From: Candidatus Hydrogenedentes bacterium CG07_land_8_20_14_0_80_42_17
GTDB taxonomy: Bacteria; UBA8481
Reading direction: 5' to 3'
Length of the DNA stretch: 7,244 nucleotides
Assembly (NCBI GenBank): GCA_002780065.1
Contig: PEWQ01000005.1
Location: forward strand, 1-7,244
Shown here: positions 2,880 to 5,899 of the stretch, in pieces
Numbering within the stretch: the first letter of the stretch is position 1
Layout: each line of letters begins with the position of its first letter
Notes under the pieces: generated by a model
What the model saw: the letters and a program-made list of their open reading frames with translations, nothing else
Databases searched by the model: none
Told to the model about the DNA's origin: nothing
Translations under genes and position numbers: made by a program

Positions 2880-3791
2880 TTATTTTCTTTTCTTCAAAAG
2901 TTCAAAAAACTTTTCCGGCAGTTTGTATTCGCCGCCAATCGAGGCAGTTGGTGCAAACTTTTTCGCTACTTCAAGATCAGCAATATATCCCCATTTTTGG
3001 TAGATTTGTTGACCGACCGGCCCTGTGACATAATTAATAAATTCTTTTGCGAGCTCGGTGTCTCGAACTGTGACTGGAATTGAAATTGGAACATAGGACA
3101 ATCTTGGAATTCGTTCCGACGGTATTTGAATGAATTGCATCTTGTCAGGGTTCCAACTTTCGAAGACTTTCCAGCCAAGAATTGCATCGCATTGCCTCAT
3201 TGCCGCAAGGTTCGCACTCTTTTCGCAACTTTCGCCGAAGGTGACGATGTTTGGCATTACTCGTTCGAGAAGGTGATTGTATTCAAGAAGTTCGATTCCA
3301 TAGAGCCCAAGGCATACTGTTTCAGGATTGCCAACTCCGACTTTGACGCCGGGTTTTGCGAGATCTTCAAGAGTATGAATTTGTTTTGGGTTTCCCTTAG
3401 GAACAATTATTGCCGGTATAAGATAACATACAATTGTATCCGAATGAGGAATGAGAAGCTTTTTGTTCTCTCCGATAATTATGTAATCAGGACTGCCTGG
3501 AAGGTAAATATCGCCCTTTCTGCTCAATTCGCATTGAGAGAGAAGAGTTCCGGAACCGCCGAATGTCATTGTTATTTTGACTCCGCGCTCTTTTTCAAAA
3601 GCTGAGGCAATCTCTTCCATAGCCGGCTTATTTGCGGCTCCGCAGAGAATGAAGAGCTCTTTTACTTCTGCCGGATTGGATGAAGGTAAAGTTTTTGAAC
3701 CTCCACATGCCGCAGCAAAAAAAGCTATCAAGAGTGAAAAGAATATTGTTCGATATGTTGCTATAAAAAAACCTCCAAAAATATTTTTCAT
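2880..3791 (-). CDS. modA: Molybdate/tungstate-type substrate-binding lipoprotein (ModA-like)
   Basis: Periplasmic receptor of the importer, 303 residues. The N-terminus has a hydrophobic segment (about 16-28) ending AAAC, so Cys29 is the probable lipidation site and the protein is anchored to a membrane. Family landmarks follow in order: LCGAANKPAMEEIASAFE (49-66), FGGSGTLLSQ (77-86), and GDIYLPGSPDYI (93-104), the counterpart of the 'ADVFLSA' stretch of ModA. Next are VGNPETVCLGLYG (153-165), CDAILGW (201-207), and a late Tyr in SYVPISIP (232-239). These positions line the oxyanion pocket in characterised ModA proteins. The ATG overlaps the porin stop (TAATG), so the two are translationally coupled. 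The ligand is inferred from the family and from the MocA-like gene in the same operon; tungstate or another tetrahedral oxyanion is not excluded. Confidence 0.85.
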   Translation of the reverse strand: MKNIFGGFFIATYRTIFFSLLIAFFAAACGGSKTLPSSNPAEVKELFILCGAANKPAMEEIASAFEKERGVKITMTFGGSGTLLSQCELSRKGDIYLPGSPDYIIIGENKKLLIPHSDTIVCYLIPAIIVPKGNPKQIHTLEDLAKPGVKVGVGNPETVCLGLYGIELLEYNHLLERVMPNIVTFGESCEKSANLAAMRQCDAILGWKVFESWNPDKMQFIQIPSERIPRLSYVPISIPVTVRDTELAKEFINYVTGPVGQQIYQKWGYIADLEVAKKFAPTASIGGEYKLPEKFFELLKKRK

Positions 3792-4990
3792 TAGAATTTT
3801 ACTCCGATTGTGCTTTCAATTCGATTGCGCTCACTGATATTCCGAGCGCTGATACGAGAGCTATGAAATCCTGAGACTCCCAATGTAGTATTCGACCATG
3901 GTGAGTAGCTTATGCGCGCAGTCCAACCTTGAATGTCGGTGTTGCCGAGAGATGAATTGAATTCGCTTTCAGTGAACTGACCGAGTGCAGCGTCGGATTC
4001 GATACTTCGCCATCCACCGCCAATTTCCCATGTGCCGGCTTTATCAATTCGACCGAGTTGAAGATTTGCGGTCCATCCTCTGTTCTCTTTTTGATTATTG
4101 AATGTGTTTGGAGTGGCGGAGAGATTTTGGATATATCCGCCGCTTACGCGAAGCGGCAATGCATCTCCAACGGTCAACTCATACCAACCGGAGAGATCGA
4201 ATATTGAGTAACCGTTCGGTTGCAGATGCTGATTTGCCGGGAAATTGGTTTTCGATTGTGCAGTAGCATCGATGCTATATGGTCTAACGAAATGATATTG
4301 CCCTGCTGTCAGGCTCCACTTCATTCCGCGCTCTGTGCTCAGCGTATGAACAAAACCAATTTGACCGCCCAACATATAGGGATCATCAGGTGCGGAGTTG
4401 TCTTCCATAAAAAACTGCCCGCCGGTTATACTCCATTCAAATTTGTCGCGCTTCAACTTGAGTGTTTCAGCTATACCTTCAGGCGTGACATCGCGATCCC
4501 AAACGAGAGAAGTGGTTCTGAATGGTTGAGGTATCTTGCCTCCCACGATGTGAATATCGCGCCAAAAGCTGAATGGGACAACATCAAGATATGCAAGGTC
4601 GATACCTATTGTTTTTCCAACTGCCGCATTGTCAAAAGACTGAAATGTTCCAGTTGGATTAGCAGAAGTTCCTGTTGCAAATCGAAGACCAACCGTGACA
4701 CTGGGATTAATTATTTTTGTGAAGCCTAATCGCATTGCAAAGCGGCCACGCTCTCGATCACTGGTGCCTGCGGCTCCTGTTCCAGTGTCGTCAAAAAATG
4801 CATCATAACGAATACGAATATCACCATTCCACTTAAAACCTTCGAAGAAGCGGGCTGATTGTATTATTCCAGTTTCATACTGTTGCAAATTGAGTATAGA
4901 ACTAGGAATACCACCTGCATTCTCTTCATTCGCAAATGCCGAACTTGCTGTAACAAAGAACAGTAATGCAATTATTAAAAACCGATTCAT
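3791..4990 (-). CDS. Outer-membrane porin of the Porin_5 ('putative porin') type
   Basis: A 399-residue beta-barrel protein, likely the outer-membrane entry pore for the oxyanion taken up by the downstream ABC genes. Residues 1-20 form a signal peptide (hydrophobic core, cleavage after AFA before NEEN). After it come the barrel-entry segment WNGDIRIRYDAFF (54-66), an Arg-rich strand RERGRFAMRLGF (79-90), and GKIPQPFRTTSLVWDRDVTP with EGIA (151-174). I recognise these from putative porins of Gram-negative environmental bacteria. The rest alternates short amphipathic strands and loops rich in Gly, Asn, Ser and Thr. The last residue is Phe (GVKF), the usual C-terminal barrel-assembly signal. The start is fixed by AAGGAG (complement of 4997-5002), 6 nt before the ATG. 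It sits 17 bp after the regulator-like gene and overlaps the lipoprotein start. Molybdate specificity is inferred only from operon position. Confidence 0.8.
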   Translation of the reverse strand: MNRFLIIALLFFVTASSAFANEENAGGIPSSILNLQQYETGIIQSARFFEGFKWNGDIRIRYDAFFDDTGTGAAGTSDRERGRFAMRLGFTKIINPSVTVGLRFATGTSANPTGTFQSFDNAAVGKTIGIDLAYLDVVPFSFWRDIHIVGGKIPQPFRTTSLVWDRDVTPEGIAETLKLKRDKFEWSITGGQFFMEDNSAPDDPYMLGGQIGFVHTLSTERGMKWSLTAGQYHFVRPYSIDATAQSKTNFPANQHLQPNGYSIFDLSGWYELTVGDALPLRVSGGYIQNLSATPNTFNNQKENRGWTANLQLGRIDKAGTWEIGGGWRSIESDAALGQFTESEFNSSLGNTDIQGWTARISYSPWSNTTLGVSGFHSSRISARNISERNRIESTIGVKF

Positions 4991-5007: not shown

Positions 5008-5700
5008 TCATTTTACTTTCACTACTCCTTGATCTTTAACTTCAATATCAACACAATCTTTACTGTGATGCCGAATAAACGATGCAAGCCCCCAACGAGA
5101 ATCCATACTGAGAAGTTCAGGAATAATATTTGCAGAAAGAAGTACAGGATGTCCGCGTCGCGATTTGTAAATCGGTGAGACTATAGCCGGTTTCTTGGCA
5201 GTGGTTTCGAAATATGTGAATAGAGCTTGAATTGTAGATAGTTTAATGTTGGGGCGAGTTGCAAAGGTAATCAAGACAGAATCAAAATTTCCTTCTATAA
5301 AGCGTAGCGCTCGTTTCAAAGAAGAGGCAAATCCCGGATTATTGTTCGTTACAGGCATGATTGTGGTATTCTCAGGCAATCCAGAGAACTTCGTTATTTT
5401 TTGAAAATCGCAGATTAGTATTATCTGACCTATATGTAAGCGATTGAGAATACGAATTAGGCGCTTGGCATTGATTATTAAGCGAGTTCTACGTTTATTG
5501 CCGCTCGCCGCCAAAATAACTGCACAATGCATGGAAGATCGACTATTTAAATTGATTATACGGTAGAAATTATTATATCCGACCAGAATGCTTTCAGGCC
5601 GACCGTGATTTGTCACGATAACAGTTCCATTCTTGACAAGATATTTTGAGAGTTCAGGCAGTTGCTTACGCACATCAGCTATGTTCAGAGCAAGATTCAT
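5008..5700 (-). CDS. Phd/YefM-like DNA-binding domain fused to a degenerate MocA/MobA-like nucleotidyltransferase domain
   Basis: A 230-residue protein heading the oxyanion-uptake operon. Residues 1-53 match the Phd/YefM antitoxin fold: MNLALNIADVRKQLPELSKY, then TVIVTNHGRPESILVGYNNFYRI. Residues about 57-230 follow the MocA/MobA-like order: CAVILAASG (59-67), a NNNPGFASSLKRAL segment (120-133), a 'DQP' region, RRGHPVLLS (181-189), and a C-terminal IEVKDQGVVKVK. The catalytic signatures are damaged. The LAAGxSxRMGxxK loop reads LAASGNKRRTRLI, without the MG and the Lys, and the metal-binding Asp of GDQP is replaced (ATRP, Thr148). The protein also stops before the usual 'DIDTPEDY' end. It therefore looks like a pseudoenzyme sensor coupled to a DNA-binding domain; this is inference. 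No toxin gene adjoins it. I chose ATG 5700 over ATG 5721 because the latter lies inside the promoter and the Phd domain begins exactly at the former. Confidence 0.75.
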   Translation of the reverse strand: MNLALNIADVRKQLPELSKYLVKNGTVIVTNHGRPESILVGYNNFYRIINLNSRSSMHCAVILAASGNKRRTRLIINAKRLIRILNRLHIGQIILICDFQKITKFSGLPENTTIMPVTNNNPGFASSLKRALRFIEGNFDSVLITFATRPNIKLSTIQALFTYFETTAKKPAIVSPIYKSRRGHPVLLSANIIPELLSMDSRWGLASFIRHHSKDCVDIEVKDQGVVKVK

Positions 5701-5708
5701 ATTAACAA

Positions 5709-5737
5709 ATAATATGTACATAATTACTGAGTGTCAA
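5709..5737 (-). promoter_or_regulatory. Near-consensus sigma-70-type promoter of the molybdate-type operon
   Basis: On the minus strand TTGACA (complement of 5732-5737) is followed after exactly 17 bp by TATTAT (complement of 5709-5714). That is a perfect -35 and a five-of-six -10. Transcription would start near 5702, about two bases before the ATG at 5700. The mRNA would then be leaderless or nearly so, which fits the absence of a Shine-Dalgarno site. Read-through could cover all five downstream transport genes. Confidence 0.75.
5713..5722. promoter_or_regulatory. TGTACA-core palindrome in the promoter spacer, candidate Phd/YefM-type operator
   Basis: TATGTACATA is a perfect 10-bp palindrome lying between the -10 and -35 boxes, touching the -10. 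Operators of E. coli YefM-YoeB are palindromes with a TGTACA core placed at the promoter. The adjacent gene has a Phd/YefM-like N-terminus. Binding here would block RNA polymerase, so autorepression is the natural inference. Only one such palindrome is present, and a 6-bp core can arise by chance. Confidence 0.5.
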
Positions 5738-5745
5738 GTATTATT

Positions 5746-5781
5746 TTCTAGAATTTATCCAGAACTGGAATTTATCCAGAA
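5746..5781. promoter_or_regulatory. Two tandem 19-bp inverted repeats upstream of the -35 box, candidate operator or activator sites
   Basis: The sites TTCTAGAATTTATCCAGAA (5746-5764) and AACTGGAATTTATCCAGAA (5763-5781) share 16 of 19 bases and overlap by two, giving a 17-bp period. Each has dyad symmetry of the form TTCTRGA-N5-TCYAGAA, the second site with two mismatches at its outer edge. Relative to the predicted transcription start they span about -44 to -79, the zone used by activators. They do not match the ModE consensus as I know it. The binder is unknown: either the fused protein itself or a regulator encoded elsewhere. Confidence 0.55.
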
Positions 5782-5790
5782 GTCGATAAT

Positions 5791-5865
5791 ATGAAAAAAG
5801 AATATAGAATCGGACCGTGCAAGCCGCAGGCCGACGAAGATACAGAGATTTTATTAAATATATGA
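5791..5865 (+). pseudogene. Possible N-terminal remnant of a radical-SAM protein gene
   Basis: A 24-codon plus-strand reading frame begins MKKEYRIGPCKPQADEDTEI and ends LLNI before a stop. The RIGPC(K/R)P segment resembles the very start of radical-SAM proteins that normally continue into a TRNCPWN-type cluster motif, which is absent here. No ribosome-binding site precedes it and the next gene ends 35 bp further on. If real it is a decayed fragment left beside the operon. It could also be chance similarity. Confidence 0.2.
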
Positions 5866-5899
5866 GTTATGCTTTGTGGCTCTGCGCCTCCGTCCTTAT

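Follow-up and report, generated by a model that had tools for sequence, protein, structure and literature searches.

One-component regulators derived from enzymes, e.g., MocR/GabR, NadR, and BirA, join a DNA-binding domain to one that resembles an enzyme of the pathway under their control. In the MocA family, the elements that bind and activate the NTP are the RMGxxK loop and the aspartates of the GDxP and DIDTP motifs. TGTACA is the core of the palindromes to which YefM and Axe, of the Phd/YefM antitoxins (PF02604; YefM-YoeB, Axe-Txe, Phd-Doc), bind (PMC7730913, PMC4803016), and in axe-txe the long repeat is placed between the -35 and -10 elements (PMC7730913). In the present study, we analyzed a single stretch of DNA (the window), which is an entire contig of 7.2 kb from a metagenome-assembled genome of 2.39 Mb (87% complete). 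The gene P0001 (5008-5700, minus strand) seems to combine a Phd/YefM-like DNA-binding domain (residues 5-50) with a degenerate MocA-like domain of the NTP_transf_3 type (about residues 56-230), as judged from profile matches, alignment, AF2 modeling, and fold comparison. It shares the plan of MocR/GabR, NadR, and BirA, and differs from them in its antitoxin-type DNA-binding domain and in its enzyme family. The reading we prefer, to which we give about an even chance, is that P0001 is an autorepressor whose dead MocA domain reads the status of the molybdenum cofactor (Moco). Our literature searches found no published account of a Phd/YefM-MocA fusion, and a MocA pseudo-enzyme coupled to a DNA-binding domain of the antitoxin type is apparently unreported in the literature searched, while enzyme-derived one-component regulators are already known.

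The surroundings of P0001 are those of a molybdate-type uptake operon. On the minus strand the genes run in the order M23 peptidase, P0001, porin, ModA-type binding protein, permease, ATPase, and NDK. The porin and ModABC-type transporter that the earlier note had placed downstream were both recovered, as a Porin_5 outer-membrane porin (3791-4990; Pfam match), a ModA-type substrate-binding lipoprotein (2880-3791; Pfam and TIGR01256, 75.9 bits over a cut-off of 62.5), a ModB/WtpB-like permease (1883-2713), and a ModC/WtpC-like ATPase (796-1881), the last two by NCBIfam comparison. The permease stays under the modB equivalog cut-off (155.4 vs 182.6), as does the ATPase under those of modC (185.7 vs 285) and WtpC (258.7 vs 440), so that these two genes do not distinguish molybdate from tungstate; molybdate is indicated as the substrate because the ModA-type protein exceeds its cut-off, and tungstate is possible on these scores. 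The genes are tightly spaced: the 17-bp gap between P0001 and the porin contains the Shine-Dalgarno sequence of the porin, AAGGAGAG, the ModA-type gene overlaps the porin stop by 1 nt, and the permease and ATPase genes lie 1 nt apart. Co-transcription of the whole operon, from P0001 through the transporter, is likely, with less than certainty for a single transcript because a 166-bp gap with structured repeats splits the binding-protein and permease genes. This gap folds strongly (z -3.2), and no terminator was predicted in it on the operon strand. Between the same two genes, at 2742-2850, lies a pair of direct repeats, each 46 bp long and containing many inverted repeats, a region that could be a REP-like element stabilizing the upstream mRNA. 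Apart from P0001, the genome encodes a MocA whose loop is intact, and since this gene adjoins those for the FAD and 2Fe-2S subunits of a xanthine-dehydrogenase-type enzyme, the organism appears to make Moco enzymes.

P0001 also adjoins molybdate transport genes in the manner of the ModE regulators, and it would do the same job; unlike ModE, it matches neither HTH_1 nor Mop/TOBE in Pfam, and the domains are unrelated. An Rfam scan of the window gave no family over its gathering score and hence no Moco riboswitch match in the operon leader.

Turning to the protein itself, the match of residues 5-50 to PhdYeFM_antitox (E 5.4e-6) reaches 26.5 bits, and 27.5 bits when residues 1-56 are taken alone, just under the PF02604 cut-off of 29.8; an antitoxin of the same genome that is linked to a PIN toxin likewise falls below it (21.7 bits). 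For the proposed fusion of a Phd/YefM domain to a MocA-like one, Pfam confirmed the second half outright and gave a match slightly below threshold for the first half, and we retain the assignment. For the first 56 residues, a search of the PDB by sequence returned nothing significant, and the AF2 confidence for this part is low (pLDDT 52-68) because the alignment had no Phd sequences. Like the Phd/YefM antitoxins, P0001 has, besides this domain, a TGTACA-core palindrome within its promoter and probable autoregulation; unlike them, it has neither a toxin gene nor a toxin-binding C-terminus, the MocA-like domain standing in place of the latter, and its palindrome is single rather than paired. 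The remark that no toxin gene is adjacent held true, the neighbors being the M23 peptidase and the porin. Every other antitoxin that was found in this genome adjoins a toxin, and P0001 alone has none. A RelB-like antitoxin (L074) was considered as a further Phd gene and excluded, and a PADLOC run gave no match.

The MocA-like domain is the better defined of the two. Residues 79-213 match NTP_transf_3 with 40.6 bits (E 4e-10, cut-off 27), and the match spans profile positions 28-158 only, leaving out the N-terminal part that holds the loop. The closest curated families are the DVU_1551 NTP transferase and MocA, both far below their equivalog cut-offs, with 59.6 bits for TIGR03310, 23.2 for TIGR03202, and 62.4 for NF045665 vs 186 (186.45), 235, and 315, respectively. 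On an alignment with 30 MocA-type homologues, the nucleotide loop LxAGxSxRMGxxK is absent and reads LAASGNKR (with S for G66, N for S68, and R for the loop K, and with a deletion of MG from RMG), and the aspartate of GD(Q/H)P is replaced by T148. These are the two losses reported earlier; to them we add a third, the DIDT(P) motif with the second aspartate, which is missing because P0001 ends early. Kept, on the other hand, are R70, G123, S127, P150, P176, Y178, and R182-G183-H184-P185, together with the SSLK and RRGHPV elements. Most other near-invariant positions are retained as well, so the losses, instead of being scattered, cluster at the catalytic motifs (the NTP loop and the two aspartates). 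The 30 homologues had been fetched by an RGH pattern, which makes RGHP conservation among them true by construction, whereas its retention in P0001 is not so; GHP is also present in a homologue set not selected by that pattern. P0001 therefore resembles the MocA/PucB cytidylyltransferases and the DVU_1551 family in homology over about 150 residues, in SSLK and RGHPV, and in its predicted fold, and departs from them in the lost loop and aspartates and in the Phd domain placed in front. The structure prediction that had been suggested as a check gave a MocA fold, with pLDDT 85-97 over about residues 71-230 (74-79 at 51-70) in an AF2 model built with homologues, and the model superposes on the MocA-related structures 3d5n (Z 20.4) and Rv0371c (2we9; Z 20.2). 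We have high confidence that the fold predicted by this model is kept; the domain, in the best reading of the alignment, is catalytically dead.

The evidence for regulation comes from the DNA in front of the gene. The promoter-like site that scores best in the window (11 of 12; 5709-5737, minus strand) is sigma-70-like, with a -35 element TTGACA (5737-5732), a 17-nt spacer, and a -10 element TATTAT (5714-5709). Its spacer holds a candidate operator, the palindrome TATGTACATA, centered on TGTACA (5713-5722), which overlaps the -10 element by 2 nt. This 10-mer has exactly two copies in the 2.39-Mb genome, and the second lies 10 bp upstream of the start of the Phd-like antitoxin gene paired with the PIN toxin (the pair at L073, 1661-2335). 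Sites of the form ATGTACAT number nine in the genome, the other seven all within long ORFs. The third Phd/YefM gene, which has a YoeB-like toxin partner, carries a GTAC-centered palindrome, TGCGTACGCA (L072, 1756-1765), 34 bp upstream; the same 10-mer recurs in L078 at 332. Altogether, three of the five 10-bp GTAC palindromes in the 133 kb of this genome that we examined precede the three Phd/YefM genes, in a set of loci partly picked for Phd/YefM genes or GTAC sites. In 2000 shuffles of 5701-5899, the TATGTACATA 10-mer arose once and TGTACA 46 times, for a motif that had been spotted by eye with the YefM literature in mind, the genome-wide count coming afterwards. The paired palindromes 12 bp apart of the yefM-yoeB type (long and short repeat) were not found in the P0001 region, which has one TGTACA only. 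The regulator role claimed for P0001 gains support from this YefM-type operator core in its own promoter, in a 10-mer shared within this genome only with another Phd-like antitoxin gene. It is the chief new sign that the Phd part still binds DNA at that promoter, and we consider it quite probable that P0001 binds the candidate operator. Cross-regulation between the PIN toxin-antitoxin pair and the molybdate operon is possible on the strength of the common 10-mer.

Taken as a mechanism, the preferred autorepressor would work as follows. P0001 would be a one-component transcription regulator whose DNA-binding domain was captured from a Phd/YefM antitoxin and whose MocA-like domain is catalytically dead. 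Its dimer would bind the GTAC-centered palindrome within its own promoter, between the -35 and -10 elements, and block RNA polymerase, which would place P0001 itself, the porin, and the molybdate-type ABC transporter downstream under autorepression. The MocA-like domain, its nucleotide and metal side lost and SSLK and RGHPV kept, would bind molybdopterin or Moco, or alternatively a Moco-carrying protein such as XdhC or the intact MocA of the genome. This binding would signal to the repressor whether further molybdate is required, and repression would be relieved or strengthened. DNA binding and repression we infer from the sequence; the identity of the ligand and the direction in which it acts are speculative. 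Sensing of a nucleotide or a metal by the MocA part, as first suggested, is argued against by the loss of the NTP loop and of both metal-binding aspartates, and because these triphosphate- and metal-binding elements are gone, the pterin cofactor or its carrier is favored over NTP or metal and is the most likely ligand. That P0001 stands for a new class of regulator, in which a toxin-antitoxin domain was recruited to a pseudo-enzyme of the Moco pathway so as to read Moco, either finished or as a precursor, rather than molybdate, and to set molybdate import, is a tentative proposal that we hold to be rather unlikely as yet. If the model is right, an antitoxin domain would have become a metabolic regulator of the ordinary kind and a dead cofactor transferase would have become a sensor, and molybdenum regulation would have one more route in addition to ModE and the Moco riboswitch. 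The defined candidate operator makes the model testable in vitro.

The alternative that survives best, although we would give it only about one chance in four, is a DNA-binding autorepressor whose MocA-like domain is not a sensor and serves instead as a dimerization or protein-contact module (e.g., for XdhC or MoeA), or persists as a passive remnant of a former operon mocA, with the operon held at a constant low level. The operator evidence touches the Phd part only, the nucleotide and metal sites are gone, and the ligand is solely conjectural, all of which suits this alternative; yet the fold appears intact and the near-invariant non-catalytic residues RGHP, Y178, P176, and G123 are retained, which is not what one would expect of a passive remnant.

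Somewhat more improbable, in our opinion, is a decaying gene, in which an orphan Phd antitoxin happened to be joined in frame to a copy of mocA and which is now degenerating, or else an uncommon error in the assembly of the metagenome contig. The distribution of the architecture agrees with such an origin: no second copy turned up in about 400 genomes (386 relatives' genomes, 2 of its own phylum, and two small phyla of genomes with related transporters or MocA, besides plasmids, viral contigs, and genome contigs) or in 48 further loci, so that the search for the same arrangement beside modABC elsewhere came back empty. Every MocA-type homologue found is stand-alone (N-terminal extensions checked by eye), and the nucleotide loop is present in each one complete enough to judge, L165 being too partial. 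Among the neighborhoods of related ModA-type genes in eight genomes, most retain the permease and ATPase genes, and no relative of P0001 is nearby. With the architecture a singleton in the collections searched, no sign of selection on the combination was seen, which also weighs against the preferred reading. The lost catalytic motifs and the source, a 7.2-kb contig of an incomplete assembled genome, also agree with decay or misassembly, as does a codon score that is the lowest of the window's genes (0.074, the others 0.13-0.26, leave-one-out). Against it, that score is still the highest among the six frames and is similar in both halves of the gene, and the ORF is intact over 230 codons (ATG at 5700). 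The consensus promoter with its operator, the tight spacing to a porin with a ribosome-binding site, and the clustering of the losses on catalytic motifs likewise speak against decay. As for the start, 5700 is the better choice because the alternative ATG at 5721 sits upstream of the -10 box; since the ATG at 5700 comes 8 nt past this box and has no Shine-Dalgarno sequence, translation of P0001 may start on a leaderless, or nearly leaderless, mRNA.

A non-regulatory cofactor handler, namely a MocA-like chaperone or Moco carrier with the Phd-like part for oligomerization, would fit the operon with molybdate uptake genes and the MocA-family homology, but it leaves no role for the Phd operator core found only at P0001 and at the promoter of a true antitoxin, and we regard it as very improbable.

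Two further repeats were observed in the window. Downstream of NDK, at 77-170, there are AT-rich low-complexity tandem repeats of 7 bp (AAATTGC). Just upstream of the -35 element of P0001, at 5748-5781, two tandem 17-bp repeats read TTCTGGATAAATTC(T/C)AG on the minus strand, each being an inverted repeat CTGGA-N5-TCCAG or one mismatch off. As a regulon marker the 17-bp repeat was set aside, there being no other copy at up to 2 mismatches and the 3-mismatch matches not clearly exceeding a reversed control. The pair is unique in the genome, a chance origin is unlikely by shuffles of 5701-5899, and the repeats may form a second site for P0001 or the site of another regulator.
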